Positions 1 through 19,648 of a stretch of 64,000 nt of DNA are shown here, piece by piece. The position numbers were made by a program, and so were the translations under genes. The notes beneath the pieces were generated by a model. It did not search any database. It was not told the DNA's origin and saw only the letters and a list, made by a program, of their open reading frames with translations. Numbering within the stretch: position 1 is the stretch's first letter; every line of letters starts with the position of its first letter. Source of the DNA: Planctomycetota bacterium (GTDB lineage: Bacteria > Planctomycetota > Planctomycetia > Pirellulales > Pirellulaceae); assembly GCA_027622275.1 (NCBI GenBank), contig JAQBZB010000001.1:1-64000 (forward strand), read 5' to 3'.

Positions 1-495
1 GGCAGGAGTCGCTCACGCTGAAAGGACACACCGCCTTTGTCACGAGCGTGGCATTCAGCCCGGACGGGCTACGGCTGGCCTCGGCGAGTGTGGACCGGAC
101 GGTCAAGGTGTGGGACGCGGCCACGGGGCAGGAGTCACTCACGCTGAAAGGACACACCGCCTTTGTCACAAGCGTGGCGTTTAGCCCGGACGGACAGCGG
201 CTGGCCTCGGCGAGTTATGACCAGACGGTCAAGGTGTGGGACGCGGCCACGGGCCAGGAGTCGCTCACGCTGAAAGGACACACCAGCTATGTTAATAGCG
301 TGGCGTTCAGCCCGGACGGGCAGCAGTTGGCCTCGGCGAGTGATGACCAGACGGTCAAGCTGTGGGACGCGGCCACCGGGCAGGAGTCGCTCACGCTGAA
401 AGGACACACCGGCTTTGTTAATAGCGTGGCGTTCAGCCCGGACGGTCAGCGGCTAGCCTCGGCGAGTGGTGACCAGACGGTCACGCTGTGGGACG
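1..495 (+). repeat. Tandem 126-bp WD40-coding repeats
   Basis: About four direct copies of a 126-bp unit start near positions 1, 127, 253 and 379. Each codes for one WD40 blade. The copies differ at only a few bases, mostly in the variable loop (GCCTTT, AGCTAT, GGCTTT). This is a coding tandem array, not a CRISPR. Confidence 0.93.
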
Positions 496-512
496 CGACG
501 CCGCGCAGATGA
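3..512 (+). CDS. WD40-repeat protein, C-terminal fragment
   Basis: The frame is open from the window edge, so the start lies upstream. The visible 169 residues are four WD40 repeats of exactly 42 residues each. Each carries the GH dipeptide (LKGHT), the SVAFSPDG turn, the LASAS strand and a final V-x-LWD or VKVWDAATG. WD40 repeats form beta-propeller interaction scaffolds. In planctomycetes such C-terminal propellers are often fused to a Ser/Thr kinase or a STAND NTPase, but that part would be outside the window. The repeats are almost identical in DNA as well as protein, which implies recent duplication or gene conversion. The reading ends a few residues after the last WD motif, as expected for a propeller that closes the protein. 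Confidence 0.93.
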   Translation, partial: QESLTLKGHTAFVTSVAFSPDGLRLASASVDRTVKVWDAATGQESLTLKGHTAFVTSVAFSPDGQRLASASYDQTVKVWDAATGQESLTLKGHTSYVNSVAFSPDGQQLASASDDQTVKLWDAATGQESLTLKGHTGFVNSVAFSPDGQRLASASGDQTVTLWDATPRR

Positions 513-638
513 AGTTGGAACGCATTCGCCCCGGACGTGCCGCGCTTGAACCTCGCAAGAACGCGCGGTCGCGCCCCAGGGCAGATGCGAATCATTGCCG
601 CTCGTCGCGGTGCCCTCGTTTCCCTAAATGACGTCGGG

Positions 639-1754
639 CTAATCGACCGATGAGTTTGCCGGACGCTCTCGTAAACTCCGGTGTGTAACGACCTGGGCAA
701 CTTGCCGTCCGGTAACGCTCAGCGCATACGCGTCGAGTTGATTCGGCCGAACCCAGACAAATTCGCCCGGCTTTTTGCGGCCTGAGAGCTGTTCCGCCTC
801 GTAGCAGGTCAACGTGATACGGAAACGGGTGACGCCGTGTTTGATTGTGGTGATGTGGTCACCAATGGCGACATCGTAGCCGGTCAATTGGCGAACGCCT
901 TCGGCTAGTTCGTGATGCAATTTGGCGCCGCGAGTGGCGACGATTGGGAAGCGCGGGAAGTCCCAGAGGCCGGACCAGCGTTCGCCCGGCTCGCAGCGGC
1001 GAAGTAAGACTTTGCCTTTACGCCAGACGACGACGTACGCTTCAAAAGCGTCTTCGTAATTGGTCTTCTTCTTGGGAGCCGGAATCACATCTTGCAGGCC
1101 CTCGGCTCGTGTTGGGCAGAGGATCGCGACAGGACATTCGTCGCAGCATGGCTCACGTGGTGTGCAAACCTCGCTCCCTAACTCCATCACCGCCTGGTTG
1201 AACTGGCCGACGCTCTTACGAGGCAAAAAGTCTGCGGCGGCTGCCCACAGGACTCGCTGACCCGCGGTGCTCGTCGTGTCCTCGCGATAGCCGATCAAAC
1301 GGCTGAAGAGGCGGATGGTGTTCGCTTCCAAGATCGGCTCGCGGGCGTCAAAGGCGATCGAAAGGATGGCACCCGCGGTATAACGCCCAATGCCGGGAAG
1401 CGCTTTCACGGATTCCGCGTCGCGAGGAAAGACGCCCTCGTGCCGGTCGACGATGACTCGCGCCGCCTGATGAAGTTGTCGCGCGCGACGATAGTAGCCC
1501 AAGCCTTCCCACAACGCTAGCACTTGATCTTCGTGAGCCGAAGCGAGCGCCCCAAGCGTCGGAAACTCCGCGATGAAACGTTCATAATACGGGATCACCG
1601 TCACGACTTGCGTCTGTTGCAGCATGATCTCGCTTACCCAGATGCGATAGGGGTCGCGAGTTCGGCGCCAGGGAAGATCGCGTGAATTACGCTGAAACCA
1701 TCTTGAAAGTCGTCGCCGCAGGCTCTGCTTCCACTTACTGTCAGGCCTGGCCAT
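639..1754 (-). CDS. mutY: A/G-specific adenine glycosylase MutY
   Basis: This base-excision repair enzyme removes adenine mispaired with 8-oxoguanine or guanine. In the 371-residue product, SEIMLQQTQV carries the catalytic Glu (about residue 42). The helix-hairpin-helix LPGIGRYTAG is followed by the catalytic Asp of AFDAREP (about 136). A C-x6-C-x2-C-x5-C motif (about 197-213) binds the [4Fe-4S] cluster. The C-terminal 130 residues, with GLWDFPRFP, are the NUDIX-like 8-oxoG recognition domain. The frame is open further upstream to 1862, but those 36 extra residues run into an inverted repeat and have no family counterpart, so I place the start at the ATG at 1754. The gene is divergent from the kinase gene at 2100. 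Confidence 0.95.
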   Translation of the reverse strand: MARPDSKWKQSLRRRLSRWFQRNSRDLPWRRTRDPYRIWVSEIMLQQTQVVTVIPYYERFIAEFPTLGALASAHEDQVLALWEGLGYYRRARQLHQAARVIVDRHEGVFPRDAESVKALPGIGRYTAGAILSIAFDAREPILEANTIRLFSRLIGYREDTTSTAGQRVLWAAAADFLPRKSVGQFNQAVMELGSEVCTPREPCCDECPVAILCPTRAEGLQDVIPAPKKKTNYEDAFEAYVVVWRKGKVLLRRCEPGERWSGLWDFPRFPIVATRGAKLHHELAEGVRQLTGYDVAIGDHITTIKHGVTRFRITLTCYEAEQLSGRKKPGEFVWVRPNQLDAYALSVTGRQVAQVVTHRSLRERPANSSVD

Positions 1755-1780
1755 CCTAGCAGTCTTTCTAAATATCAGAT

Positions 1781-1926
1781 CCAGGGCTTTTGTTTGTCTG
1801 AAGTTGCGTAAGAAGTAGCATGGCCTCGTAGGCCGTGTCGGGTTGGGAACACTGGGAAACACACGGCCTACGAGGCCATGCTACTCATTCGCACTCGCCG
1901 CAGATTGAATAAAGCAAAAGCCCTGG
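1781..1926. repeat. Nested palindromic element between mutY and the kinase gene
   Basis: A perfect 25-bp inverted repeat (1814-1838 with 1861-1885, starting AGTAGCATGGCCTCGTAGG) encloses a 22-base spacer. An outer 12-bp pair, CCAGGGCTTTTG (1781-1792) and CAAAAGCCCTGG (1915-1926), brackets it. It occupies the divergent promoter region. Confidence 0.85.
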
Positions 1927-2099
1927 TATCGGATTGTCCGCTGTTCGCGATCGGCGACGTCTCGTATAGAATAGGCGGTCGTTAGGTTTTCCGAAACATG
2001 ATGCATCCACCCGCCGTGGCGCGGCACAGACGTCACGCTTCTTGGATGTCCTCGCTCCTTCTCAATGACGCATCCCACCTTGTCTGTTTGCAGTGACTC

Positions 2100-5000
2100 A
2101 TGAGCGACTCGGACCCATTTGACAAGACCGCGGATTGGCAGGACAGCGGCAATCGCCCGAAAGCGGTTCGCGTTGCCGTTGAACCGCCCTCTCACATTGG
2201 GCGATACCAAATCGTTCGGCAACTCGGAGAGGGTGGCTTCGGAGTCGTCTATCTCGCACAGGACGAACAACTCGGCCGACAGGTGGCGGTCAAAGTGCCG
2301 CACGAACATCTCGTCGCCGAGCAGAGCAACGTGGAGGCATATCTGCGAGAAGCGAGGACGGTGGCGAGTCTCGACCATCCCAACATCGTCCCCGTCCACG
2401 ACGTCAGCAGCACCGAGCGGTTCCCTTGTTTCGTCGTGTCGAAGTACGTCGAAGGTGGCGACTTGGCGGATTCGATGGCGTCGAAGCCGCTCGACTTCCG
2501 AGCGGCCGCGGAACTCATCGCGACATTGGCTGATGCTTTGCACTATGCGCACAAGCAAGGCGTCGTGCATCGCGATATCAAACCCAGCAACATCTTGCTG
2601 GCCGCGGATCGCACTCCGTATCTGGTCGACTTCGGCCTCGCGCTCCGGGAAGGTGATCCCAGGACGGGCCGTCATTTCGTCGGAACACCGGCCTATACCA
2701 GCCCCGAGCAAGCACGCGGCGAAGGCCATCGGATCGATGGACGCTCGGATATCTTCAGCCTGGGCGTGGTCATGTACGAGTTGCTCGCCGGCCGCAAGCC
2801 GTTCGTCGGGAACTCGACGACCGGCATCTTGGCATGTGTGATCGAGGACGAGCCGAAGCCCTTGCGTCAAGTGAACGATACGATCCCCAAGGAACTTGAA
2901 CGCATCTGCTTTCGAGCGCTTTGCAAGCGCGCGTCGGATCGGTACATGACCGGTAAAGATCTGGCGGAAGATCTGCAAGCGTTCCTTCAATCCTTGTCAG
3001 AATCGACGGATCCGAGTTCGACCGTCGAGCTAGTTGCCTCCGTCAAGGAAGATACGCATCGCCGCGAATCTGACGCGACCGTTCGTCCGGATTCAGAGAT
3101 TGCGCCGAAGATCGTCCCGAAGGGACTGCGTTCGTTCGATGTTAACGACGCGGAGTTCTTTCTCGAGTTGTTGCCGGGTCCGCGGGATCGAGAAGGTGTG
3201 CCGGACAGCATCCGGTTTTGGCTCACGCGAATCCAGGCACCGCATGTCGCCGATAACTGTGCGGTCGGAGTGCTCTACGGGCCGAGCGGTTGTGGCAAGT
3301 CGTCCTTGATCAAGGCGGGCATCTTGCCGCGGCTCGATGCCAAGATCGTGCCGGTGTACGTTGAAGCGACGCGGAGCGATACCGAACGGACACTGTTGCG
3401 ATCGCTCCGCCGGGCCTGTCCCGATCTATCGCGCGAAGACGGCTTGGCCGCAAGCTTGGCCTCGATCCGGCGCGACGCGCGGCTGGGTCCGAATCGCAAG
3501 CTCCTGCTGGTCATCGACCAATTCGAGCAGTGGCTTCACGAGCATGAAAGCGAGCGCGAGTCCGAGTTGATGCAAGCCTTGCGGCAGTGCGATGGCCGCC
3601 ACGTCCAAGCGATCCTGCTTGTCCGCGATGACTTTTGGATGGCAATCTCGCAGTTCATGCGAGAGCTGGACATTCCGCTCGTCGAGTCGCAGAACACGAT
3701 GGGTGTCGCGATGTTTGACATGCGGCACGCAGCGAAGGTGCTGGAGTCGTTTGGCCGGGCCTATGGTGCGTTGCCGGAAGCTCCCGCCGCGCTCACCGCG
3801 GACCAACAGAAGTTCGTGTCCAAGGCGGTGAACGGTTTGGCGAAGGACGGCAAGGTTATTTGTCTTGACATCGCCCTGTTCGCCGACATGCTACGCGACA
3901 AACCGTGGCGCACCGATACCTGGCGAGCGTTCGGCGGGACGCGTGGCGTCGGCGTGCAATTCCTCGAGGACGCCTTCTCGACAGACACAGCGCCAGCCGA
4001 TTCTCGGTTTCACAGTGAAGCGGCGCAAGCCGTCTTGAAGCTTCTCCTGCCCGACTCAGGTAACGACATCAAGGGACACTCGCGAACCGAGGCGGAACTG
4101 TTCGCCGCCAGCGGCTACCAGCATCGAGCTGACTTTGAGAGCTTGCTCGCGCTGCTGGATCACAAACTTCGCTTGATCACTCCCGTCGCGTTCACGGTCA
4201 TCCATCGCAAGGCTGCCGGTGATTCTCAGGGATCGCAGGATCAGGAAACGCTCTACCAATTGACCCACGACTTCCTCGTGCAGGCCGTGCAAGAGTGGTT
4301 GAAACGCAAGCAAGAAGAGACACGTCGCGGCCGCGCTCAGCGTCGCTTGGTGGAGTTGTCGTCCATGTACAGCTCCAGTCCCAATGCGAAGCTGCTGCCT
4401 TCGACATGGGATTATCTGCGTTTACGCACTTGGACGGATCGACGTCATTGGAACGATGCCGAGCATCGGCTGATGCAAGCTGCACGAAAAAACGTAACGC
4501 GGCGATGGCTGTTGGCGAGCGTCGGATTCGCAGTATTGATGATCGGTGCGATCGCGATGCGGATCGCCATCGCCCGGCAAGCCAGCGAGCAGCGTCTCGA
4601 CGGTCTCGTGGCTCGTTTGCTGGACGCCGACCTCAGCGAAGTGGCAGAAGTCAGCAGGGAGATTCGCCAAAATGGAGCGTTGGCTCGCCAGCGGCTCGTC
4701 AAAATCGCATCCGACACAGAACGTCCCGACCGCGAGCGGCTGCGCGCCCATCTGGCCGTGATCGACCAGCATGATCCCGCGGTGGAATACGTCACCGAGA
4801 CCGCACTTCGTTCGTCGCCGGAGGAATTGGCAATACTTTGCGGGTTTCTTCGCGGACATGCGGACTCGGTCGCCAAGGATCTGCGGAGTGGCCTCAATTC
4901 AAATGCCCCGCTGAATTGGCGTCTTCGTGCCGCTGCTATCGTGGCACAGGTTCAAGGCCACAACGGCTTGTCCGAGTTTGCGGCCGAACACGTTGCCACG

Positions 5001-7445
5001 GCGCTGATGGAACAGGATCAAGTCGCGCTGTCAAAGTGGGTCGCGCTGTTAGCGCCTCTCGCAGATTCGTTGCAGCCGCCGCTCGAGTCGTACTTTGTGA
5101 ATCGCGATGGGTCCACGGACAGTCTTCACGCAGCCATCGCGCTGGCCGGTTTGCGCGCGGACGACCCGTCGAAGCTCATAGACGTAGCCTTGCTCGCTGA
5201 GCCACAGCAGTTCGTCGCTCTGTTTCCATCGCTCGCCAACGCACCCGATGTTGTGGCGGCTCGTTTTCGGGAAGAACTCGATGCCGATCGCGAATCGGTA
5301 TGGCCGCTGCCAGCATCGGCCAGCCAACTCCAACCGCTGCCTGCCGAATTGCGGGACACCATCGAGGACAGCATCGGGATCGTCGATGAGGGCTTCCTGT
5401 TGGTCCAGCGGCTTCCGTGGAGTGACTTTCCTCCGTTGGCCAACTCGGTTGCCGAGTTCGGTTATCGGCCGATCATCGTCCGGCCGTACGGCGGCGCGAG
5501 TCCGCAAGTCGCCGCGATCTGGTCGCGCGACGGAAATCAGTGGGAACTTGTCGGCGACGTATCGGCTGCTGAAGTGACTGCGGCGCACAGCCGCAATCGT
5601 GATCGAGGCTGGATCGCGCGTGATGTTGCTCGCTACGAGACGACTGCCGCGGACGGATCGAAGCGCCCGATGTTCGCTGGGCTTTGGAGCCCGGCCGCCG
5701 CGGGGGAGGATGTCTTGGAGGGCGAGATGTACGTGGCGGTCCCGGAAACGGAACACGAGTCCGCATGGCGGCCGTTAAACGCCCGAGGCTTCATCCCGCG
5801 CATCAATCTCAAGTTCCACGACAACGCGGGGCAGCCGCTTTACACGTCCGTGCGATGGCGGTTGGACCGTACGTTCGGATATCGGGATTGCTGGGACGCG
5901 AATGGTTTCGATTCAGCGGATTTACTTGATCCGTGGAACTGGCGGCAGACGGATGTTCGGATCTCCAATGACGGGAGCCGTCCCGAGCCCAAGATCGCTG
6001 CGACCTGGTGGCAGGATCCGACGATCGCGGCCCAACTGGTGCGGGCCGATGACTTGTGGCAACATCAGGTTCAGTGCGCGGAACTCGCCGAACAGGGCTA
6101 TCGGCCGCGGTCGATCAGCGTCTATCAGGACGCCGGTAATGCGGCCCCACAAGCGGCATCGGTTTGGCACCGGCCGATTCCTGATCGAGATGACTTCGAT
6201 GCCCTGGTCGCCAGAAAGGCCAACGCCTTGATCGGTCTCTGGCGGTTGGGACACGACGACGAAGTCATGCCGTGGTTGTCCGATCAATCTGACCGGCAAG
6301 TTCGTTCCGAGTTCATTCATCGCAGCACGAAGATGAGTGTCTCGGCGGCGAGTTTGTACGACGCCTTCGTCGCGGACGCGGATATTGTCGCGCAGCAGGC
6401 GTTGCTCGCCGCCTTGAGCCAGATTCGTTCGGACCGATTGGATAGGAGTGTCCGCGACGCGCTGCTGAAACACTTACTGAAGCAATACCGCACCAGCCCT
6501 CATGCTGGCCTGCATTCGCACATCGAGTTGCTCTTTCAGCGCTGGGGAACACCCGCCGAGTTCCATCGACTGAGCGACGAGTTGGCCACGGCTTCGACAA
6601 GCGCAGCAGCGATGAGCGGCAAGAGCTGGTTCGTCACCGCAAGCGGCATGACGATGTCCGTCATCGCCGGGCCCGCGGATTTCTTGATGGGTTCTCCGCT
6701 CCACGAGCTTGGCCGCGACGCGGAAAAGGAGCCCCAGCATCTGCGTCGTGTTGACCGCACTTACGCACTGGGAACCCGCGAAGTCACGGTCGCCGAGTTT
6801 CTGAGCTATCGCCCGGACTTCGATTATCCCCCTGACTATTCGCCGCTGCCGAATTGTCCCATCGGACACTTGGATTGGTTCGACGCGGTTCGCTACTGCC
6901 GCTGGCTGAGCGAACAGGAAGGCATTCCGGAAGAGGAGATGTGCTATCCGCCACTCGACCAGATTGGCGACGGCATGCGAATGCCCGAAGACTTTCTCCG
7001 CCGGATCGGCTACCGCTTGCCAACCGAAGCCGAATGGGAATACGCTTGCCGTGCAAACTCCGAGACGAGCCGCCATTATGGCGATCAAGCATCGTTGCTG
7101 GGCGATTACGCCTGGACGGCGGAAAACTCGGACTATCGTTCGCACCCGGTGGGCCAGTTATTGCCCAACGGCTTCGGTTTATTCGACATGCACGGCAACG
7201 TCATGGAGTGGTGCCATGATCAAGACGCCCCGTATCCGACGCCGTCACTTCATATTCGATACGACGACAATCGACACGGGCCAGTGATCGCGAATGAGGA
7301 CGGTCGAATGACGCGCGGTGGTGCATTTTTGTACCAACCTCTCAACGCACGTTCCGCTCAGCGCGACGGCCACTTCGCAAATTCACGCCGTCCTTACCTG
7401 GGCTTTCGCGTCGCTCGCACGATCCGACCGACTAATCAGGACTAG
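2100..7445 (+). CDS. Ser/Thr kinase - STAND NTPase - FGE-like fusion protein
   Basis: This is a 1781-residue, probably membrane-anchored signalling protein. Residues 34-295 are a complete Hanks-type kinase: glycine loop GEGGFG (43-48), Lys65, Glu84, HRDIKPSN (157-164), DFG (177-179) and a TSPE loop. A STAND-like NTPase follows, with Walker A GPSGCGKSS (394-402) and Walker B LLLVIDQF (468-475). One transmembrane helix lies near 801-824. HEAT-like helices come next, then about three copies of a GYRP...AAVW repeat (about 1115-1370). The C-terminus (about 1510-1775) is a formylglycine-generating-enzyme (C-type-lectin) fold with RLPTEAEWEYACR, DMHGNVMEWC and GFRVAR. The GGAF region lacks the Cys pair of true FGEs, so I infer a non-catalytic binding domain. 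Kinase activity looks intact. The role is unknown; signalling or a conflict system is plausible. Confidence 0.93.
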   Translation: MSDSDPFDKTADWQDSGNRPKAVRVAVEPPSHIGRYQIVRQLGEGGFGVVYLAQDEQLGRQVAVKVPHEHLVAEQSNVEAYLREARTVASLDHPNIVPVHDVSSTERFPCFVVSKYVEGGDLADSMASKPLDFRAAAELIATLADALHYAHKQGVVHRDIKPSNILLAADRTPYLVDFGLALREGDPRTGRHFVGTPAYTSPEQARGEGHRIDGRSDIFSLGVVMYELLAGRKPFVGNSTTGILACVIEDEPKPLRQVNDTIPKELERICFRALCKRASDRYMTGKDLAEDLQAFLQSLSESTDPSSTVELVASVKEDTHRRESDATVRPDSEIAPKIVPKGLRSFDVNDAEFFLELLPGPRDREGVPDSIRFWLTRIQAPHVADNCAVGVLYGPSGCGKSSLIKAGILPRLDAKIVPVYVEATRSDTERTLLRSLRRACPDLSREDGLAASLASIRRDARLGPNRKLLLVIDQFEQWLHEHESERESELMQALRQCDGRHVQAILLVRDDFWMAISQFMRELDIPLVESQNTMGVAMFDMRHAAKVLESFGRAYGALPEAPAALTADQQKFVSKAVNGLAKDGKVICLDIALFADMLRDKPWRTDTWRAFGGTRGVGVQFLEDAFSTDTAPADSRFHSEAAQAVLKLLLPDSGNDIKGHSRTEAELFAASGYQHRADFESLLALLDHKLRLITPVAFTVIHRKAAGDSQGSQDQETLYQLTHDFLVQAVQEWLKRKQEETRRGRAQRRLVELSSMYSSSPNAKLLPSTWDYLRLRTWTDRRHWNDAEHRLMQAARKNVTRRWLLASVGFAVLMIGAIAMRIAIARQASEQRLDGLVARLLDADLSEVAEVSREIRQNGALARQRLVKIASDTERPDRERLRAHLAVIDQHDPAVEYVTETALRSSPEELAILCGFLRGHADSVAKDLRSGLNSNAPLNWRLRAAAIVAQVQGHNGLSEFAAEHVATALMEQDQVALSKWVALLAPLADSLQPPLESYFVNRDGSTDSLHAAIALAGLRADDPSKLIDVALLAEPQQFVALFPSLANAPDVVAARFREELDADRESVWPLPASASQLQPLPAELRDTIEDSIGIVDEGFLLVQRLPWSDFPPLANSVAEFGYRPIIVRPYGGASPQVAAIWSRDGNQWELVGDVSAAEVTAAHSRNRDRGWIARDVARYETTAADGSKRPMFAGLWSPAAAGEDVLEGEMYVAVPETEHESAWRPLNARGFIPRINLKFHDNAGQPLYTSVRWRLDRTFGYRDCWDANGFDSADLLDPWNWRQTDVRISNDGSRPEPKIAATWWQDPTIAAQLVRADDLWQHQVQCAELAEQGYRPRSISVYQDAGNAAPQAASVWHRPIPDRDDFDALVARKANALIGLWRLGHDDEVMPWLSDQSDRQVRSEFIHRSTKMSVSAASLYDAFVADADIVAQQALLAALSQIRSDRLDRSVRDALLKHLLKQYRTSPHAGLHSHIELLFQRWGTPAEFHRLSDELATASTSAAAMSGKSWFVTASGMTMSVIAGPADFLMGSPLHELGRDAEKEPQHLRRVDRTYALGTREVTVAEFLSYRPDFDYPPDYSPLPNCPIGHLDWFDAVRYCRWLSEQEGIPEEEMCYPPLDQIGDGMRMPEDFLRRIGYRLPTEAEWEYACRANSETSRHYGDQASLLGDYAWTAENSDYRSHPVGQLLPNGFGLFDMHGNVMEWCHDQDAPYPTPSLHIRYDDNRHGPVIANEDGRMTRGGAFLYQPLNARSAQRDGHFANSRRPYLGFRVARTIRPTNQD

Positions 7446-7447
7446 CT

Positions 7448-7599
7448 CGGATTATTTATCAGTGCGGTTCTCGCGAACTTCCAGAGAACCGCACGCTAGC
7501 GCGTGGCGGCTGATTTGCGCGGTGTTTTGGGCAAGATTGCCGCAACTCTTTTTACAAACGTATGTGTTTAAGAATGCTGACCGGCTGATGAATAATCCG
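7448..7599. repeat. MITE-like palindromic element, family A copy 1
   Basis: This 152-bp element has terminal inverted repeats (CGGATTATTTATCAG / CTGATGAATAATCCG) and an internal hairpin (TGCGGTTCTCGCGAAC with GAGAACCGCA). It is homologous along its length to the reverse complement of 18224-18391, but lacks a 16-base block. It fills the gap between two convergent genes and ends 2 bp from the stop codon of the downstream minus-strand gene. Confidence 0.88.
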
Positions 7600-7601
7600 G
7601 G

Positions 7602-8423
7602 CTAGCGGCCGCGATCAGCGGCATGGCGTTGCATGTCGCGGCGAATGGGGTTGAATCTTCGCAGATAAATACTCGCGTCGGAGGTGTAGCGACCTTGGCC
7701 AAAGGCATAGAAAGTAACTTCGACTAAGCCGTCCGGTTCAAGCGCAAACTCCTCGTCGGGATGCTTCCCGCGAAACGGTAATCGATAGACGGCACCGTAC
7801 GGGCCAAAGTCGTTCGTGTCGGCTTGCAGCGACCACCGGCCGAGTTGCGGGAACGCATTGGGATCGTGAGCAGGGAGTTGATTACGCGCGAGGAGCGTCG
7901 CGGTGATCTGGCCTGAGACGGGCACGATCTCGCCAAACGTGTTTCTCGGCAAGACGCGTATCTCGACGCCGTCGGTCGCTGCGTCCTGATCCCAATTCGC
8001 GACGCGAGCTTCCACGTCCAGCGAAACGACCCGCGTCGCGGCATTACTTTGCTGGAACGGTCGAGTTACCGACGTCGTCACATTCGCCTTCGCATCACGA
8101 GCTGGCCCCGGCAACGCGTTCGCAGCCGCCTGCTTCGGACGAAACTCATCCACACGATTGACGAATGCTTCAACGGACAGCCGCTCGCCATTCGCATTCA
8201 CGGCTTTGATGTGCTCCCACGCCGCGGAGGTCGCGACAACAAATGTCGGCGAGGCCGATCGCAGCCATAACCGCTCGTCGCTGGTCCGCGGATCAACCTC
8301 GCCCGCCAACATCCGCCCATCGTTCAGCAACACCACGACCAGGTCGCTCGCGTTGACACACCGTGGCGCGGCGAACACGCAGAACGTGACGAGACAGAAC
8401 GCAGTGAATCTGGTGCCGGACAT
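7602..8423 (-). CDS. Secreted protein of unknown function
   Basis: This 273-residue protein has a Sec signal peptide (MSGTRFTAFCLVTFCVFAAP, cleavage likely after VNA near residue 25). The first mature segment, LVVVLLNDGRMLAGEVDPR, resembles the short beta-rich 'DG..L.GEV' module found at the start of several planctomycete secreted proteins; another in this window starts at 12715. The rest is beta-strand-rich, with no catalytic motif I recognise. The ending RRFNPIRRDMQRHAADRGR is basic. It lies convergent to the kinase fusion and is separated from it only by a palindromic element. It appears to be a single-gene transcription unit. No function can be assigned. Confidence 0.82.
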   Translation of the reverse strand: MSGTRFTAFCLVTFCVFAAPRCVNASDLVVVLLNDGRMLAGEVDPRTSDERLWLRSASPTFVVATSAAWEHIKAVNANGERLSVEAFVNRVDEFRPKQAAANALPGPARDAKANVTTSVTRPFQQSNAATRVVSLDVEARVANWDQDAATDGVEIRVLPRNTFGEIVPVSGQITATLLARNQLPAHDPNAFPQLGRWSLQADTNDFGPYGAVYRLPFRGKHPDEEFALEPDGLVEVTFYAFGQGRYTSDASIYLRRFNPIRRDMQRHAADRGR

Positions 8424-8650
8424 GACGGGATCTCCTGAATCGGAAGAGAACTCCGACTAAGGCAATCTTGATGCCACGCCAGACTCTGCGTGAGATCGCT
8501 CAGACGTAAGTACAGACGTTCATGGCAGTTCGTGATCCTCTGAACTCAGCCGGCGAACACGAAGCAAAGCGTTGCACAACGTCAACATGATGCCGAAACG
8601 CAACCCGACTCGGGGCTCGAAGGCTTGATCCCAGCCACACGGTTGAGATT

Positions 8651-10237
8651 TCACTTCGACAGGCGTCTCACGACGTTCGCCGTGATCTGCGAGACGTGCT
8701 TGTCGACCAGCAGCGAACTGGGCCAGTTGATTGAACCTGCAGAGAACACCGCCGCGCCATTGCCTGGCTCGTGGATCACCATGTGGGCACCACCTTCGCC
8801 GGGATTGAGTCCTTGCGCCAGGAGCTTTGTATTGGAGGGCGAGGAATGTGAGATCTTGTCGGTCTCGTGACCGGAGGCTCCGCCGGGGATGCGTTGGTGC
8901 TGGCTCTCGTGCCCAAACGTGTCGCCGTTGCGCAGCGCGGTGCCCTTAAAGACCCAGTGCGACTCGTCGACGACCTCGTACGGCGCGGCGGTCATGATGC
9001 CGCGTTCGTCGTAGACCACGCCGAGCAGGTTCGCTTCGGACTCCTGTCGCAGATGGAAGCGGCTCTCGTAGGTGCTGCCGGCGGCGGTCAGCTTTCGCGA
9101 GTCGTCGTTGCGATAGATACAAGTCTGCGAGTCGAGGAATTCGACGTCGCAATTCAGTCCGTTCCCGCCCAAGTACATCAAGCGACCACCGCGCTCGAAG
9201 ACCCAAGCCTTCAACTTGAAGTACATCTCGCTCGACCAGTACTCGGGATGCGTGCTGATGATCAACAACTTGTAGTCATCGAGATTCAGCGTGCCGAAAT
9301 GCAGTTGCGTTTCGGCATAGACATCGTGCGCGAACTCTTCGCGCTCCAGCCAGCCTAGCAATCTCCATTCGGCGGGCGCGATGTGGCAGGGGGCGCGGCC
9401 TTCGATGGGGCCCGTGATCTCTTCGTCTTCCGGGATGTGATTGATCGGCTCGGGACGGTCGAACGACAGCGGATCGTAATCGACCGTGTCGTAGTTGATG
9501 TGATCCGGATCGGTGTACCGCCGCAGTTCCAACCGCGCGTTGACGGTCGGCGTGGGCGGAAACGTATCGGGATGGATGTAGTTGCTGCGGCCACCAAAGT
9601 TGTTGTAGGCGTTCCACGTGATGTTCGAGAGCAGGACGGCGGTCGGAGCCGTCGGCTTGGCCGGAGCGACGATCCAAGGGAACGAAAAGAACTTGCCCGA
9701 TTCACCCTTGGCGTGGAAGTAATACAAACCGCTCCGCTGGGGAGCCGTGATGAATTGCTTGTGATGTGGGCAACTGTAACCGAACTTGTTCCATTGCACT
9801 CCGGTCTGCGTGTAGTCGCCATCGGGAGTGATCTGGACCGTGGCCCGTGGTCCATGTTCGTCGAACCAACCTATTGGCTTGGCCAATTCCTTCTTCCAAC
9901 CGTAACGCCACAGCGACAGTTTGAATTGCTCGTCGGAGTGGACGCGAAACTCGGCCTTCTCGCCGGACTGCACCCACTTGGGCCAGGCATAGCCCATTAA
10001 CGAATCTTTGAGCAACCGGAACTGGTACGGCTGCTCTGGCGTGACGGCGACTTTGACCCGCTTCGATCCGTAGCCGCTCTTGGCCAACGTCACCAGGTAC
10101 TCGCCAGGCTCGATATCGGCGTACACGGCACCCGATGCCCGCGATCGCACTTCGAGATTGAGAGATTCGCTTTCGAATTCAACTTGTACATCGGGCAGCG
10201 CGACGTATCGTTCGTCGCTAACGTATCCAATCAGCAT
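8651..10237 (-). CDS. N,N-dimethylformamidase large-subunit-like protein
   Basis: The 528-residue protein begins with an 80-residue Ig-like carboxypeptidase-regulatory-type domain (VQVEFESESLNLEV...GEYLVTLAKSGYGSKRVKV). A region typical of the N,N-dimethylformamidase large subunit follows. It includes NITWNAYNNFGGRSNY, a pocket with THPEYWSSEMY (His330 and Glu332) and a glutamine-amidotransferase-like ERGGRLMYLGGNGL strand. In characterised enzymes an iron site using Tyr, His and Glu hydrolyses amides. The H-x-E of HPEYW and the Tyr of WNAYNN fit that pattern by my reading. No small-subunit gene is adjacent, and there is no signal peptide. The real substrate is unlikely to be inferable from sequence; I regard it as an amidase-like enzyme. 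Confidence 0.82.
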   Translation of the reverse strand: MLIGYVSDERYVALPDVQVEFESESLNLEVRSRASGAVYADIEPGEYLVTLAKSGYGSKRVKVAVTPEQPYQFRLLKDSLMGYAWPKWVQSGEKAEFRVHSDEQFKLSLWRYGWKKELAKPIGWFDEHGPRATVQITPDGDYTQTGVQWNKFGYSCPHHKQFITAPQRSGLYYFHAKGESGKFFSFPWIVAPAKPTAPTAVLLSNITWNAYNNFGGRSNYIHPDTFPPTPTVNARLELRRYTDPDHINYDTVDYDPLSFDRPEPINHIPEDEEITGPIEGRAPCHIAPAEWRLLGWLEREEFAHDVYAETQLHFGTLNLDDYKLLIISTHPEYWSSEMYFKLKAWVFERGGRLMYLGGNGLNCDVEFLDSQTCIYRNDDSRKLTAAGSTYESRFHLRQESEANLLGVVYDERGIMTAAPYEVVDESHWVFKGTALRNGDTFGHESQHQRIPGGASGHETDKISHSSPSNTKLLAQGLNPGEGGAHMVIHEPGNGAAVFSAGSINWPSSLLVDKHVSQITANVVRRLSK

Positions 10238-10251
10238 AACGCATCATCCGC

Positions 10252-11055
10252 CTACGAACTCTTTGGAACCGGCAAGCCCATTTCACTTAGCAGCATCCGA
10301 ATGTCCGCCCACGTATCCTTTTTGGCAGCTGGGTTTCGGAGCAGGTAAGACGGGTGATAGGTCACCACGACCTGGGCTCCTCGATACTCGTGAATCTTTC
10401 CCCGCAGCTTGCCAACGGGCGTGGTCGTCTCCAGCAGATTCTGCGCGGCGACGGTACCCAGACAGCAGATGAACTTGGGGCTGATGATTTCAAGCTGCCG
10501 TTCGAAGTACTCGCGGCAGTTCGCGGACTCTTCAGGGCTCGGATTGCGATTCCCCGGCGGGCGGCATTTCAGAACATTCAAGATGTAAACGTCCGATCGC
10601 TCCAATCCCATGCCCTTTTGAATAATATCGTTGAGCATCTGTCCGGCCCGGCCCACGAACGGTTCGCCCAGCCGGTCCTCGTCGGCACCGGGAGCTTCGC
10701 CAAAGAAGCAGAGCCGTGCGTTCGGATCGCCGGTACCAAAGACAGTTTGCGTCCGCGAGCAGGCCAGTTCCTCGCAGCGGGTACATGCGGCAACTTCTTT
10801 CTGAACGACGGCCAGCGCGGAGGCTGTGTCTTGCGGGCGTCCTTGCTTCATTACTTCGGGTCTTTCCTGCTCGGCGGCGCGAGGTGGTTCGAGGTCTTCT
10901 AGAATTGCGGGTGCCGGTTCCGGTGGTGGCAGGGGAGCTTCGATCGACGTCGCCGCCCGGCGCGGCAGCTGCGTCACGCCCGCGCGACCGAGCGACTCGA
11001 GTCGCTGGACGACAATCCGCTTGATGCGTTCCATCGACGTATCCGTCTGATCCAT
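10252..11055 (-). CDS. Family 4 uracil-DNA glycosylase (Fe-S type)
   Basis: This enzyme excises uracil from DNA. In the 267-residue product, motif 1 is [22 protein letters not shown] (about 117-137), [13 protein letters not shown] lies near 160-172, and motif 3 is [10 protein letters not shown] with His234. Four cysteines (C91-x2-C94, C180, C197 or C198) are placed to bind a [4Fe-4S] cluster, as in thermophile-type family 4 enzymes. The first 80 residues form a Pro/Glu-rich linker. The frame remains open to 11472, but that would overlap the der gene, so I use the ATG at 11055 ([13 protein letters not shown]). It is divergent from der. Confidence 0.92.
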
Positions 11056-11244
11056 CGGTACTCCAAGCCGCCACGATGAAGTGGGCCATGTCAAAGGGTG
11101 ACCGCCCAGTATAAGGCCGGTGGCACGGCCTCGCGATAAGGGGGCCGATGAGGCCGAGGGCCGGACGCCTGTCGCAAACGCAAGTACCGAACTATGATGA
11201 ACGGCTCGACATTCCTCCCGATACCAACCAACTCCACTACAGCG

Positions 11245-12627
11245 ATGAGCGTTCCTCAAGTCGTCATTGTCGGCCGTCCTAATGTCGGTAAGTCCAGCGT
11301 TTTCAACTGGCTGGCCGGGAAGAGACTCTCCATCGTCGATGACGTGGCCGGAGTGACGCGCGATCGTGTGACCTACCTGATGCAGGAAGACGATCACTTC
11401 TTCGAGCTGGTCGATACCGGCGGCGTGGGGATCAATGACGTCGATAATCTGACGAAAGAGATCGACGAACAAATCGAACTCGCCCTGGAAGTCGCCGACG
11501 TGATCCTGTTCGTGGTCGATTCACGGGCCGGCTTGATGCCGCTTGATAAAGAAGTCGCCAAGCGGCTGCGGTACGTCGACAAACCGATCATTTGCGTCGC
11601 CAACAAGACGGATGATCCGTCACACGATGCACAGGCTTACGAGTTCTATAAACTCGGCCGAGGCAAGCTTCTGCAAGTGAGCGCCAAGCAAGGCCGCAAT
11701 CGCGACGAATTGTTGGACATGATCCTCGATCGCCTGCCGGAAACAGAACACGTCGATCCGCTCGCGAAGGAAGAGCCGCCGATCAAGGTGGCGATCGTCG
11801 GACGCCGGAATGTCGGCAAGAGCACGTTTGTCAATACGCTTTCACAAGCCGAGCGGATGATCGTCAGTGAGATTCCTGGCACGACGCGCGACAGCGTGGA
11901 TGTCCGCTTCGAGATGGACGGCAAAGTGCTCATCGCCATTGATACGCCGGGCTTGCGGCGCGGCAAGAGCGTACGAACCGACATCGAATTCTACAGTGCC
12001 CATCGCGCCCAACGCAGCATTCGCCGAGCGGACGTTTCCTTGATGTTCTTCGATTGTACGGAGCGGATCAGCAAGGTCGACAAACAACTTGCCAAGTACA
12101 TCGCCGACAACTACAAACCGTGCGTTTTCGTCGTCAACAAATGGGATCTCATGCAGGGGAAGATGCCGACCGAGAAGTGGGTCAGTTACTTGCGCGATAC
12201 GTTCCGAACGATGTGGCATGTACCAATTGCGTTTATCACCGGCGAGACCGGCAAGAACGTGAAGGCGCTCGTCAATCACACGCAGATGTTGTTCAAGCAA
12301 TCTCGGCAACGAGTCACGACCGGCGAATTGAATCGACTCGTGCGTCGCGCCCTTGAGCACAACCCACCGCCACTGCTGCATCATCACCCGGCGAAGGTCT
12401 ACTACGCGACACAAGTCGGTACGGATCCGCCAACGATTGTGCTGATCTGTAACAATCCCGCTGGCTTCTCGCCAACGTATCGACGCTACCTGCTCGGTGT
12501 CTTCCGCGACCAGCTCAGCTTTGGCGAAGTTCCCATCAAACTCTACTTGCATCGCCGCCGCGACAGCGACGACCGGAACGAAATCCGGATGGACGACGAT
12601 GTCAGCAGCGAAGTCGACGCCGGTTGA
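11245..12627 (+). CDS. der: Ribosome-assembly GTPase Der (EngA)
   Basis: Der acts in maturation of the 50S ribosomal subunit. The 460-residue product has the hallmark two tandem G domains: GRPNVGKSS (10-18) with DTGG and NKTD, and GRRNVGKST (186-194) with DTPG and NKWD. A C-terminal KH-like domain ends in SFGEVPIKLYLHRR. The ORF could start at 11194, but family proteins begin directly with VPQVVIVGRPNVGKS, so the ATG at 11245 is chosen. About 190 bp separate it from the divergent uracil-DNA glycosylase gene. All GTPase motifs look intact. Confidence 0.97.
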   Translation: MSVPQVVIVGRPNVGKSSVFNWLAGKRLSIVDDVAGVTRDRVTYLMQEDDHFFELVDTGGVGINDVDNLTKEIDEQIELALEVADVILFVVDSRAGLMPLDKEVAKRLRYVDKPIICVANKTDDPSHDAQAYEFYKLGRGKLLQVSAKQGRNRDELLDMILDRLPETEHVDPLAKEEPPIKVAIVGRRNVGKSTFVNTLSQAERMIVSEIPGTTRDSVDVRFEMDGKVLIAIDTPGLRRGKSVRTDIEFYSAHRAQRSIRRADVSLMFFDCTERISKVDKQLAKYIADNYKPCVFVVNKWDLMQGKMPTEKWVSYLRDTFRTMWHVPIAFITGETGKNVKALVNHTQMLFKQSRQRVTTGELNRLVRRALEHNPPPLLHHHPAKVYYATQVGTDPPTIVLICNNPAGFSPTYRRYLLGVFRDQLSFGEVPIKLYLHRRRDSDDRNEIRMDDDVSSEVDAG

Positions 12628-12714
12628 TTGTCTCGGAGCTGGCTGCTCTCGTATATTGAAGGAGCCGCGTTTGACCAAGATTGACACGTATCGACGCGGC
12701 GCGGGAGTCTTGCG

Positions 12715-13941
12715 ATGCCGTATTCACGTCTGTTTGTGCGAGTTGCGATTGGCTGCTCACTGCTATTGCTTGTGCTAACCGAGTCGAAGGCGGATGACTT
12801 TGTCCTGACGACCGGTGCCACGATCCGCGGCGAGTGGCTGAACCGAGATCAATCCTCGTCCCTCTTCTATCTGGTCGCCACCGAACACGGCGGTCGGGTG
12901 AAGCTGGAGCGTTCGCGCGTTTTCAAAGTCATTCGGCAATCCGCAGCGCGCGTCAAATATGATCGGCTGGCACCAACGGTCGCCGATACGGCCGAAGACC
13001 AAGGGAAGTTGGCGAAATGGTGTCGAGACAACGACCTGCGGGAGCAAAGTGAGCAACACTTGCTCCGCGTGATCGAACTCGATCCGCAACACGAATCGGC
13101 TCGCCGAGCATTGGGCTATTCAGAAATCGGCGGGCAGTGGGTCAAGCAAGACGAGCATCTCGGACGTCAAGGCTACGTCCGCTACGAGGGGAAGTGGCGA
13201 TTGCCGCAAGAGATCGAGTTGGCCGAACAGCGGCAAGCCTTCGACTTCGCGAAGAAGGGCTGGTACGTCAAGCTCTCGCGCTGGCGGTCGCAACTGAACA
13301 GCGAGAAGCGGCACGCGGCGCTGGACAACATCCGCCAAGTCCGGGAGCCGCTGGCGATCGAGGCGATTGGCCGGTTGCTGAAAGAGGAGCAAGATCGACG
13401 AATGCGATTGATCTACGTCGAGGTGTTGGGGCAAATCGCGGACGATCGAGCCTCTGCCGCGCTCGTCGAACTCGCCCTATCCGATCGCGACGAGGAATTT
13501 TACTACGCCTGCGTCGATCAACTTGCCGCAAGAAAGACGCCGCCGTTGGTGCGACAGTTCGTCACGGCTCTCAAGAGTCAACACAATGACCGAGTGAACC
13601 GCGCGGCCATTGCGCTCGGCTCGCTCGGCGATCAGTCCGTCATCCCGCCCTTGATCGACGCCCTGGTGACGCGACACGACACGGTCTTGCCGGGCAGCGA
13701 CATGATCTCGACCACTTTTGCCAAGGGCGGCCCGGCGATGCAAAGCGGCGATAGCTTCACGTCCGGATCGACTGTGCCACAAGTGATCACGCGGGCAGCG
13801 ATGAATCAGGAAGTCCTCAAGGCGCTGGTCAAGTTGACTGGCGTCAGCTTCAGCTTTGACCAACGGGCTTGGCGGAATTGGTATACTGTGCAGCAGCGTC
13901 GCGGACAGTCGACATCGGTCGACGCACGGCGTGCTGAGTAG
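12715..13941 (+). CDS. Secreted HEAT-repeat protein of unknown function
   Basis: A 408-residue protein with a signal peptide (VRVAIGCSLLLLVLTESKA, cleavage near residue 26). The mature N-terminus DDFVLTTGATIRGEWLNRD resembles the beta module at the start of the secreted protein at 7602-8423. A short TPR-like segment (SEQHLLRVIELDPQHESARRALG) precedes several HEAT-like helix pairs: EPLAIEAIGRLLKEEQDRRMRLIYVEVLG, ASAALVELALSDRDEEF and DRVNRAAIALGSLGDQSVIPPLIDAL. Such repeats form solenoid scaffolds, and there are no catalytic motifs. It lies 87 bp after der and just ahead of the CoA-binding gene, so co-transcription is possible. Function unknown. Confidence 0.85.
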   Translation: MPYSRLFVRVAIGCSLLLLVLTESKADDFVLTTGATIRGEWLNRDQSSSLFYLVATEHGGRVKLERSRVFKVIRQSAARVKYDRLAPTVADTAEDQGKLAKWCRDNDLREQSEQHLLRVIELDPQHESARRALGYSEIGGQWVKQDEHLGRQGYVRYEGKWRLPQEIELAEQRQAFDFAKKGWYVKLSRWRSQLNSEKRHAALDNIRQVREPLAIEAIGRLLKEEQDRRMRLIYVEVLGQIADDRASAALVELALSDRDEEFYYACVDQLAARKTPPLVRQFVTALKSQHNDRVNRAAIALGSLGDQSVIPPLIDALVTRHDTVLPGSDMISTTFAKGGPAMQSGDSFTSGSTVPQVITRAAMNQEVLKALVKLTGVSFSFDQRAWRNWYTVQQRRGQSTSVDARRAE

Positions 13942-13959
13942 CATCTTCGGAGAATCACC

Positions 13960-14343
13960 TTGTCAAAACCAACCGTCGCAATCCTCGGCGCAAGTGCGGA
14001 TCGCTCGAAGTTCGGCAACAAATCCGTTCGGGCTCACCTCCAGCAAGGCTACGATGTCTATCCGGTGAACCCGCAGGGCGGCGAGATCGAAGGGCTGACG
14101 GTCTACGAGTCGCTCGCCGACGTTCCCGCCGAACGGTTGACTCGCATCAACGTCTATCTGCCGCCGCACATCGTCTTGAAGATGCTGGGCGAAGTCGTGG
14201 CGAAAGGGTGCGATGAGTTCTGGCTGAATCCGGGCAGCGAGAGCGACGAAGTTGTCGCCAAGGCCCGCGAACTCGGACTCGATCCGATCATCGCGTGCAG
14301 CATCGTTGACGTTGGGGTGTCACCGCATCAATTTGGCGGTTAA
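13960..14343 (+). CDS. CoA-binding domain protein (YccU type)
   Basis: A 127-residue single-domain Rossmann protein. KPTVAILGASADRSKFGNKSVRAHLQQGYDVYPVNPQGGEIEGL matches the CoA-binding domain shared with succinyl-CoA synthetase alpha. WLNPGSESDEVVAKARELGL and the C-terminal IACSIVDVG are also typical. It starts at TTG; a GGAG sequence at about 13949-13952 is well placed. The exact role of these small CoA-binding proteins is poorly defined. It is convergent with the frameshifted VOC gene. Confidence 0.92.
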   Translation: MSKPTVAILGASADRSKFGNKSVRAHLQQGYDVYPVNPQGGEIEGLTVYESLADVPAERLTRINVYLPPHIVLKMLGEVVAKGCDEFWLNPGSESDEVVAKARELGLDPIIACSIVDVGVSPHQFGG

Positions 14344-14378
14344 ATGTTAATCCGACTCAAATACGTGCTGGGAGTCCC

Positions 14379-14472
14379 GGAATATCGAATAATGAACAAG
14401 GAATGTCGAAGTCCGAAGTACGACACTCTGAGTCCTTCATCATTCGATATTCCTTGTTCGATATTCGATATC
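14379..14472. repeat. AT-rich palindromic element
   Basis: An imperfect inverted repeat. The left arm, GGAATATCGAATAATGAACA (continuing AGGAATGTCGA), pairs with a right arm around 14443-14472 that contains ATTCCTTGTTCGATATTCG. It is clearly more AT-rich than its surroundings and lies between convergent genes. Confidence 0.8.
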
Positions 14473-14498
14473 CACCCAACGGCAACGACCAGAAACGG

Positions 14499-14976
14499 TT
14501 ACGAATCGCCTCCGCCCTGCGGCATCATCTCCTGAAACCGCCGATCGATCTCTTCGGGCGAAAGGTCTTCGGTATGCGTGGCGATCGTCCACGAATGCCC
14601 AAACGGATCTTCGATCGTTCCCGAACGATCACCGTAGAACTGATCCGCCAGCGGTTTCTTCTCGACGGCCCCGGCAGCGATCGCTTGGGCAAACATCGCG
14701 TCGACATTCTCGGTGTAGACCATGAGACTGACCGGCGACCCACCAAAGGCCTTGGCGCTGCGAATTCCCATTTCTGGAAACTCGTCGGCCAGCATGACCG
14801 GTGAATCCCCAATCTTGATCTCCGCGTGCATCACTTTCCCCCCCCGGTCCCGGCAACCGCATCAGTTCGGTGGCACCGAAGGCATTCTTGTAGAACTCGA
14901 TGGCCGCCGCCGCATCGTTCGTGATGAGATAGGGCGTAATCGAATGATAGCCATCGGGTTTCGCTTTGACCGTCAT
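14499..14976 (-). pseudogene. VOC (glyoxalase/PhnB-like) protein gene with a frameshift
   Basis: Two overlapping reading frames together make one typical 150-160 residue VOC-superfamily protein. The N-terminal half (14976 down to about 14846) reads KPDGYHSITPYLITNDAAAAIEFYKNAFGA and ends at LMRLPGPGG. The C-terminal half (about 14837 down to 14499) reads MHAEIKIGDSPVMLADEF and ends in IEDPFGHSWTIATHTEDLS. The frame switches at a run of eight G on the coding strand (14838-14845). With seven G the product would read PGPGGKVMHAEIKIGDS without interruption, exactly the family pattern. This is a recent inactivating slip, a phase-variable tract or a sequencing error. The enzyme class is metal-dependent but its substrate is unknown. 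Confidence 0.87.
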
Positions 14977-15290
14977 TTGATGAACTCCTGCGTTGATAGT
15001 TACCTTGAGCGTTCGTCGCGTACCGAACTCACGGATAGAAACAGCTGTTTGCCCCGGAACACTGATCTTCGCTCATAAACGCTGATCAGAAAGTCGCTGA
15101 GAAAGGATTGCGATTAGCGTTGATAAGCGTTCCCAGTTCGCTCCATCCGCGTGAAACTTCCCGCTTTCGCAGGAAGTATGATATGGGTTAAGTTACTTCA
15201 GAGCCGGTCGCCGTAGATGGCGAAGTCTCGCGGGCTGGATTGTATCGCGTCCAAAACTAGAAAGTAAGTCGCCTTGGCATTGAGGAATCT
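14977..15290. other. Intergenic region without a gene
   Basis: 314 bp between divergent genes. I see no coding frame with family character and no strong palindrome. The last 12 bases (TTGAGGAATCT) contain a good ribosome-binding site for the gene at 15291. It presumably holds promoters for both directions, but I cannot identify them with confidence. Confidence 0.6.
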
Positions 15291-17153: not shown

Positions 17154-17162
17154 GACTAACCG

Positions 17163-18182
17163 ATGTTCCGTAAGTTGCTGATCGCGTCGCTCCTTGTCTA
17201 TGTCTCAACGGCTGCCTTCGCGGAAATGACGGCAACGCCGGGAGCAACGTACAACGCTCGCGACACATTGAATCCAGGCATCGAATCATCACCCGATGCC
17301 AAAGCGTGTCTCGACGGTCTGGTCTGGCAGGCGGCGGAGTTTCAAGTGCGCTGCGAGACCGCTCGCGAGCGCTGTGGCGACCTGATGATTCAGTTTCCGT
17401 CGCCGGTCGCGAGCGGCGATGCGGCCAACGACCTGGTGACGCTTGAATGGTACATGGCTCGCGATCAAGCCAAGGCTCCGATCAAGGCGCCGGCCATCGT
17501 TGTTGTCCATGAATCAGGAAGCGGCATGACCGTGGGCCGAATGATGGCCCGCGGATTGCGGATGCAGGGCTTGCATGCCTTCATGATCCAATTGCCTTAT
17601 TACGGCGAGCGGCGAGCGAACGCCAAGCGGCCGAGCGCCGAGAACTTGGTCCCTGTGATTCGGCAAGCTGTCGCGGACGTGCGCCGCGCGCGGGACGCCG
17701 TCGCCGTGTTGCCGCTCGTCGATACCGAAAGCATCTCGCTGCAAGGAACCAGTCTCGGCGGTTTCGTGACGGCGACATCGGCCAGTCTCGACAAGGGCTA
17801 CGATCGCGTCTTCATCATGCTGGCGGGTGGCGGATTGCTCGACGTGATTCAGAACGGCCAACGGGACGCCGCGAAATTTCGCGACGAGTTGGCCAACGCG
17901 GGTTTGACCGGCGGCAAGCTGGAATCAGTGGTCGCGACGATCGAGCCGCTGCGGATCGCGCACCGGCTCGATCCCGCAACCACCTGGCTGTACTCGGCTC
18001 AGTTCGATACCGTCGTCCCACCAGCCAACTCCAGGCTGCTCGCCAAGACCGCCAAGCTCGCTCCTTCCCACCACATCGAGATGCCGGCCAACCATTACTC
18101 CGGCATCATCTTTGTGCCCTACATCCTCACTCACATGCAGCAACAGATCCTACCAACCGATGTCGAAGTAGCGAGTGAGTGA
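17163..18182 (+). CDS. Secreted alpha/beta hydrolase
   Basis: A 339-residue protein with a signal peptide (FRKLLIASLLVYVSTAAFA). The fold is shown by PAIVVVHESGSG (oxyanion region), the nucleophile elbow GTSLGG with Ser197, Asp282 in SAQFDTVVPP and His311 in PANHYSG, in the usual order. It resembles dienelactone-hydrolase or prolyl-oligopeptidase-type esterases. It follows the C45 hydrolase gene by 9 bp and is presumably co-expressed with it. The pair may process the same extracellular or periplasmic compound, but that is inference. A MITE-like element lies immediately downstream. Confidence 0.88.
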   Translation: MFRKLLIASLLVYVSTAAFAEMTATPGATYNARDTLNPGIESSPDAKACLDGLVWQAAEFQVRCETARERCGDLMIQFPSPVASGDAANDLVTLEWYMARDQAKAPIKAPAIVVVHESGSGMTVGRMMARGLRMQGLHAFMIQLPYYGERRANAKRPSAENLVPVIRQAVADVRRARDAVAVLPLVDTESISLQGTSLGGFVTATSASLDKGYDRVFIMLAGGGLLDVIQNGQRDAAKFRDELANAGLTGGKLESVVATIEPLRIAHRLDPATTWLYSAQFDTVVPPANSRLLAKTAKLAPSHHIEMPANHYSGIIFVPYILTHMQQQILPTDVEVASE

Positions 18183-18223
18183 GCAGGCACAACGCTACAT
18201 CTTTCCCGCCGCTCGCCTTAACC

Positions 18224-18391: not shown

Positions 18392-18393
18392 CC

Positions 18394-19509: not shown

Positions 19510-19574
19510 GGATGCAAAACTTTCTATCGTGGAATGCCTGAGAGTGGCGATTCTGCTTGCTGTCAGCACAGTTC

Positions 19575-19635: not shown

Positions 19636-19648
19636 ATCAAGCGGCACT

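Follow-up and report, generated by a model that had tools for sequence, protein, structure and literature searches.

The described systems closest to the protein analyzed here combine STAND NTPases with lectin-like sensors. The text of Kaur et al. (2021; PMC8195603) presents STAND-FGS conflict proteins with kinase effectors, nSTAND1 modules and links to diversity-generating retroelements (DGRs), and that of Dore et al. (2024; PMC10907252) describes DGR-diversified STAND sensors, with the remark that, as of 2024, STAND proteins with C-lectin sensors were not yet experimentally characterized. The window, by which we mean the whole 64,000-nucleotide stretch of planctomycete DNA analyzed here, contains a gene whose product unites an effector, a STAND NTPase and a C-terminal FGS in one chain, which is the STAND-FGS architecture. 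We propose that this planctomycete protein is probably a receptor Ser/Thr kinase that spans the membrane once, is gated by its STAND module and carries a ligand-binding FGE ectodomain.

Domain architecture

The gene (2100..7445; this and all following feature coordinates of the protein are on the + strand) is a single ORF with an ATG start that begins at base 2100 of its contig, C210, in a 9.78-Mb genome, and encodes a putative receptor kinase of 1781 aa. Four Pfam domains match above their curated cut-offs, namely Pkinase (residues 36-283), nSTAND1 (381-758), BTRD1 (1321-1357; 36.5 bits against a cut-off of 23) and FGE-sulfatase (1527-1773). AlphaFold predicts residues 1-830 with a mean pLDDT of 87.8 and residues 826-1781 with one of 88.5.

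The N-terminal Ser/Thr protein kinase domain (residues 36-283; 2205..2948; PF00069, E 1.3e-47) has intact motifs and a fold match to PknB (Z 32.6, rmsd 1.9, 258 residues aligned). The glycine loop (GEGGFG), the catalytic lysine (K65), HRD (within HRDIKPSN) and DFG are all present, so that the complete Hanks kinase recognized in the initial annotation is borne out as a Hanks-type, PknB-like enzyme. Across the family (67 members, the window protein included), K65 is found in 65 proteins, with gaps in the other 2, and D159 and D177 each in 66. Searches with PADLOC matched the window kinase to PD-T4-6 and MAD6, but through the generic kinase domain, and the NCBIfam equivalog matches, all far below cut-off, likewise reflect the generic kinase domain.

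The kinase is followed by an nSTAND1 NTPase (residues 342-758 with the aid of the model; 3123..4373), for which the PF20703 profile scores 66.7 bits against a cut-off of 27.1, placing the previously noted STAND-like module in the nSTAND1 clade. Walker A (393-402), Walker B (468-479) and a THD motif at the winged helix (722-724) are recognizable; we take the HD of the latter to play the role of an MHD-like motif. The key residues are nearly invariant, with K400 and D473 conserved in 67/67 members and H723-D724 in 66/67. The fold lists for the model of residues 1-830 are filled by kinase matches, and a PDB profile search with nSTAND1 gave 91 sequences at E up to 5, the best 60 of which cover the P-loop region or scattered pieces only. 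The confident model displays the P-loop, Walker B and the winged-helix HD motif within residues 380-800, where an absent NTPase fold had been named as a reason to reject the initial assignment.

Next comes the one membrane helix that had been expected from the sequence, a single hydrophobic segment identified by hydropathy (residues 804-822; 4509..4565). Beyond it, the predicted structure shows an all-helical, HEAT-like solenoid (826-1090; 4575..5369), a BTRD1 repeat barrel (PF17660; 1097-1359; 5388..6176) and a second segment of helical repeats (1363-1505; 6186..6614). The repeat region with the GYRP...AVW signature, already remarked upon, is thus real and consists of BTRD1 repeats of the polyglycine-hydrolase type: residues 1097-1359 superimpose on the N-domain of Fvan-cmp (PDB 7tpu) with Z 14.6 and rmsd 4.0 over 216 residues, and this N-domain is described in the text of PMC9912923 as five EHEE repeats. 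The likeness to polyglycine hydrolase is confined to this EHEE repeat barrel; the beta-lactamase-like protease domain of that enzyme has no Pfam match in the window protein.

The C-terminal domain (residues 1506-1775; 6615..7424; PF03781, E 7.9e-35) has the FGE / C-type-lectin fold. Its superposition on 2q17 gives Z 25.9 (rmsd 2.7, 220 residues aligned), catalytic FGEs scoring about 25, yet the paired active-site cysteines are missing, as the initial annotation had stated. In the alignment to T. curvata FGE, the segment LCHESYCN with what we take to be the catalytic cysteine positions corresponds to LYQPLNA in the window protein, and the first catalytic position is a cysteine in 0 of the 34 family tails that fit the register used below. 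The FGE reaction was considered for this domain and is refuted by the absence of the cysteine pair. The best solved match is instead variable protein 1 of Treponema denticola (TvpA; PDB 2y3c), with sequence (E 3.1e-19) and structure (Z 32.0, rmsd 2.5, 251 residues aligned) in agreement, and TaqVP (Z 14.3) and Mtd (Z 13.7) appear further down the fold list. The domain thus looks like a non-catalytic FGE that resembles a variable protein. TvpA, a variable protein by its PDB title and a DGR-diversified lipoprotein, shares the FGE/CLec fold and differs from the window protein in having no kinase or NTPase.

Membrane topology

Because K+R residues are more numerous N-terminal of the helix (9 in the 30 residues on that side vs 4 on the C-terminal side), the N-terminus is predicted to be inside, with the kinase and nSTAND1 in the cytoplasm and the repeats and FGE outside it. 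This arrangement recurs in the family: a hydrophobic 19-mer (mean hydropathy of at least 1.6) is present in 62/67 proteins, nearly always directly after nSTAND1, and K+R is higher on its N-terminal side in 59 of these 62, the topology being derived here from hydropathy rather than from a trained predictor.

Family and distribution

The family is patchy and essentially planctomycete. Matches at E 1e-150 or better were found in 18 of 60 related genomes, and an 820-aa N-terminal query matched 32/296 genomes at the level of the order (1e-170) and 9/392 at the level of the phylum (1e-120). From a profile scan of named genomes, the best 80 of 101 confirmed loci were kept, and the titles of these 80 are planctomycete genera or groups except for one Verrucomicrobiales MAG and one "bacterium". 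One relative resides on a plasmid of Aquisphaera giovannonii, where it is annotated as a bifunctional serine/threonine-protein kinase/formylglycine-generating enzyme family protein. In the tree of N-terminal parts, the window protein groups with L038 from genome G015 (SH-aLRT 95), and the 3 members from its own genome occupy 3 separate places.

The architecture is largely constant. Pfam detected Pkinase and nSTAND1 each in 27/27 members of the first set and FGE in 23/27, at least 2 of the 4 exceptions (L046 and L057) being cut by contig ends. Among the C-terminal halves (n=64, L142, L144 and L064 being omitted as their C-terminal parts are shorter than 150 aa), 57 match FGE and 7 match BTRD1 in Pfam; among the best 80 of 101 named loci, the kinase is found in 73 and FGE in 51 of 58 complete ORFs. 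In two loci, L061 (5181-9644) and L064 (4128-9031), a stop or frame change splits the member into two consecutive ORFs, of which one encodes kinase-nSTAND1 and the other FGE, possibly through decay or assembly error.

DGR-targeted relatives

We scanned 66 sources, the window included, for repeat pairs whose mismatches fall on adenines of one copy, and a single family locus, L150 of genome G246, contained such a pair. Here, bAvd, RVT_1 and the template sit between two family members of 2069 and 1418 aa, and an ECF gene overlaps the start of the second member. In a 116-bp comparison with the template, one variable repeat shows 16 mismatches and the other 14, without exception at template adenines (16/16 and 14/14; hypergeometric P of 3e-11 and 1e-9), and all 84 non-adenine template bases are identical in both repeats. 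A search for the L150 RT gave matches in 11/296 genomes; of 10 further loci examined, one (L190, genome G194) has a family target, the third, in which every mismatch across 120 bp falls on an adenine. The fourth target, with one core mismatch off adenine, is L247 of a Planctomyces sp. MAG, among the best 80 of 101 named loci. Four family proteins in 3 genomes, none of them the window genome, are therefore DGR targets, and most members are not. Between its template and its ECF-kinase pair, two neighbours of which are DGR targets, L150 also encodes a protein (9711-11306, minus strand) that looks secreted and has numerous GGxGxD-type repeats.

The last part of the window FGE, a 35-aa tail (residues 1736-1770; 7305..7409) with the sequence RMTRGGAFLYQPLNARSAQRDGHFANSRRPYLGFR, is in register with the DGR variable repeats of these relatives and aligns gaplessly with the translation of the L150 template; in some members, it is thus this part of the protein that a DGR rewrites. 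A gapless fit to the L150 register was obtained for 34 of the 64 tails, the remaining 30 lying outside the entropy test, and omission of the two L150 tails left 32. Entropy in these 32 tails, for which no DGR was detected, averages 3.28 bits over the 16 targeted codons vs 1.91 over 13 untargeted codons (with motif-constrained positions excluded; permutation p 1e-5). A similar pattern is seen among three congeneric orthologs of the own-genome paralog on contig C486: of the 16 targeted positions, 10, 8 and 12 are identical, against 19, 18 and 18 of the 19 untargeted ones, with 70-74% identity in the FGE core. Such a variation pattern fits a binding surface under diversification; the entropy at targeted positions may also reflect, in part or simply, exposed loops.

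The data do not support the view that the entire FGE is strongly hypervariable: in the alignment of 27 members, its identity to the window protein (39%) is intermediate between that of the repeats (22-26%) and those of the kinase (53%) and NTPase (49%), the whole stretch equivalent to the variable repeat is 38% identical, and only the targeted codons stand out. Since a few relatives carry the same domain under DGR hypermutation, the FGE is likely the recognition part of the protein, and the earlier suggestion that it serves as a sensor gains direct support from those relatives whose FGE is the DGR target.

DGR repeat pairs also occur at 4 loci of the genome that harbours the window gene, on contigs C425, C340, C291 (two targets) and C223. 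On C425 (L076), the target (7091-10807) is a kinase-NACHT-FGE protein, with associated features of the locus at 5458-5547 and 10863-11729; an ECF sigma gene lies 55 bp upstream of it, and RT and template lie downstream. This cytoplasmic protein parallels the window protein. The further loci on C340 (L077, 8763-13574), C291 (L078, 5251-8325 and 9669-12938) and C223 (L086) have as targets AAA_35-SIR2-NACHT-FGE, DUF4062-NACHT-FGE and SIR2-NACHT-FGE proteins; we found no minus-strand ORF of 150 aa spanning the variable repeat on C223. By hydropathy, none of the own-genome targets has a helix as strong as that of the window family.

Window locus and neighboring genes

A DGR at the window gene itself was rejected after searches for RVT_1, repeat pairs and template matches. 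None of the 16 RVT_1 matches in the genome lies on the window contig, no template/variable repeat pair was found in window positions 1-20000, the tail of the window gene matches none of the four own-genome templates, and its only copies elsewhere in the genome are short conserved FGE motifs.

The gene lies in a 5.9-kb segment (1761..7611) without counterpart in the congener G002: homology to contig C98 of G002 stops at 1760 and restarts at 7612. In G002, the MutY-type gene is followed, after about 107 bp and with no kinase gene between, by the counterpart of 7605-8423 and the next three genes in order, and the collinear genes show 62-91% protein identity. Therefore, the segment was either gained in the window genome or lost in G002. 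Within it, we observed an inverted repeat (1815-1884), a 23-base arm of which occurs exactly 37 times in forward and 35 times in reverse orientation in the genome (0 in a reversed-letter control), mostly with arms paired 47 bases apart, that is, a dispersed hairpin element. The start of the MutY-type ORF (642-1862, minus strand) falls inside this repeat; homology begins at about residue 34, and the true start is therefore probably near 1763.

The WD40 ORF at 3-512 is real by Pfam and incomplete, because the window begins at base 1 of the contig. WD40 kinases occur near a few relatives, in a 5-locus neighbor cluster of which one member was scanned, and are common in these genomes; the functional link to the window kinase that had been considered for this ORF is not supported.

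In the family, an ECF gene lies directly upstream on the same strand in 14/63 and 9/66 loci, in two sets that share up to 5 loci, and both own-genome paralogs, on C257 and C486, have one; none precedes the window gene directly. ECF coupling as a trait of the family is weakened by the comparison of 14/63 family loci with kinases in general of the same genome, where 19/96 kinase starts (kinase matches) adjoin an ECF gene. According to the text of a review (PMC8999054), several planctomycete ECF groups are regulated by phosphorylation. An ECF output is accordingly plausible in relatives and not specific to the window family. Beyond ECF, glycosyltransferase-type genes and sulfatases, no conserved partner gene was found at the family loci, as judged by neighbor clustering with crude gene calling that overlooked the ECF gene of L150. 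Two recurring neighbor clusters (8 and 4 loci) involve L050, L051, L146, L151, L171 and others; of the two cluster representatives scanned, one matches Glycos_transf_2 and the other has no Pfam match. Glycosyltransferase-type genes also adjoin the Aquisphaera plasmid homolog.

Proposed function and alternative explanations

The kinase and nSTAND1 lie on one side of the helix, and the repeats and the non-catalytic FGE on the other. By the receptor model, the FGE tail would bind a ligand outside the cytoplasm, in the periplasm or at the surface, and the repeat stalk and helix would relay binding to nSTAND1. STAND proteins cluster upon activation and Hanks kinases activate in trans and phosphorylate substrates; by analogy, nSTAND1 would exchange nucleotide and cluster the protein, clustering would activate the kinase in trans, and phosphorylation of a substrate would change gene expression. 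In some relatives, the output would probably pass through the ECF sigma factor encoded directly upstream. The window gene would represent a frozen version of the sensor, without a detectable local DGR or an adjacent ECF partner, and therefore the substrate of its kinase is probably encoded elsewhere.

Of the two parts of the initial proposal, an enzyme-linked receptor or a defence protein, the former held up, and no link to phage or to a death effector was found for the window gene. An anti-phage STAND protein of the NLR/Avs type, with the FGE sensing the invader and the kinase as a death or growth-arrest effector, appears unlikely to us. Such a role would agree with the patchy distribution and the presence/absence between congeners, with the PD-T4-6 and MAD6 matches in PADLOC, with the cytoplasmic DGR targets of the same genome (kinase-, AAA_35-SIR2-, SIR2- and DUF4062-NACHT-FGE), and with the text of Kaur et al. 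(2021; PMC8195603), which lists S/T/Y kinases among the N-terminal effectors of STAND NTPase-FGS proteins and notes an association with DGRs. However, the PADLOC and NCBIfam matches stem from the generic kinase domain, the FGE is predicted to be extracytoplasmic, unlike those own-genome targets, the ECF sigma genes adjoining some members point to transcription, and neither an effector nor a defence island is seen at the window locus.

Somewhat doubtful, too, is an ordinary environmental or cell-envelope receptor kinase for glycan, polymer or kin recognition, with the FGE as a generic lectin-like binder and diversification incidental. Glycosyltransferase-type genes recur beside members and the plasmid homolog, and the text of a 2024 survey (PMC11032199) ranks the sulfatase-modifying domain third in abundance among planctomycete kinase accessory domains and places it mostly in the periplasm in single-pass kinases; but the four DGR-targeted members imply selection for variable recognition, beyond the need of a fixed nutrient or polymer cue. 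As for the possibility that the kinase is fused to a functional formylglycine-generating enzyme or an EgtB-like oxidase, the FGE match in Pfam and the annotation of the plasmid homolog are outweighed by the lost cysteine pair, the 0/34 tails with the first catalytic cysteine, an EgtB match in NCBIfam far below cut-off and a variable protein as the nearest fold, which make it highly improbable.

We thus favor the STAND-gated receptor kinase and offer, as a tentative extension, that planctomycetes maintain a repertoire of hypermutable, membrane-anchored kinase-nSTAND1-FGE receptors with a retroelement-rewritten tail and an output to ECF-dependent transcription, the window gene being a fixed descendant that keeps one useful specificity. 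If true, hypermutable receptor kinases would be a bacterial analog of diversified surface receptors signalling to the genome. The family couples a C-lectin sensor to a kinase, a testable readout, and L150 brings together two diversified receptors, a retroelement and an ECF sigma factor on a single contig, so that the ligand and the inward signalling of a DGR-diversified receptor can be asked about directly.

Comparison with known systems

In the text of the literature searched, we did not find the kinase-nSTAND1-helix-FGE combination or its targeting by DGRs. The single-pass planctomycete kinases with a periplasmic sulfatase-modifying domain in PMC11032199 share the kinase inside, one helix and an FGE-type domain outside; the window protein differs in having nSTAND1 between kinase and helix, a module that the available text of that study does not mention. 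With the STAND NTPase-FGS systems, as presented in the text of Kaur et al. (2021), the window protein shares the N-terminal effector, the central nSTAND1 (NACHT in others) and the C-terminal FGS, and the window family shares the DGR linkage of some of them. Unlike in these systems, the NTPase is parted from the FGE by a helix and by inserted BTRD1 and helical repeats, Pfam detects no EAD, the gene has no adjacent DGR and some relatives are paired with ECF genes. The sensors in the text of Dore et al. (2024; PMC10907252) likewise join a diversified CLec/FGE at the C-terminus to nSTAND1 or NACHT, and one NACHT target is predicted to be periplasmic, much like the window family, which is set apart by a kinase as effector, a constant helix and DGR association in only 4 of the proteins found.
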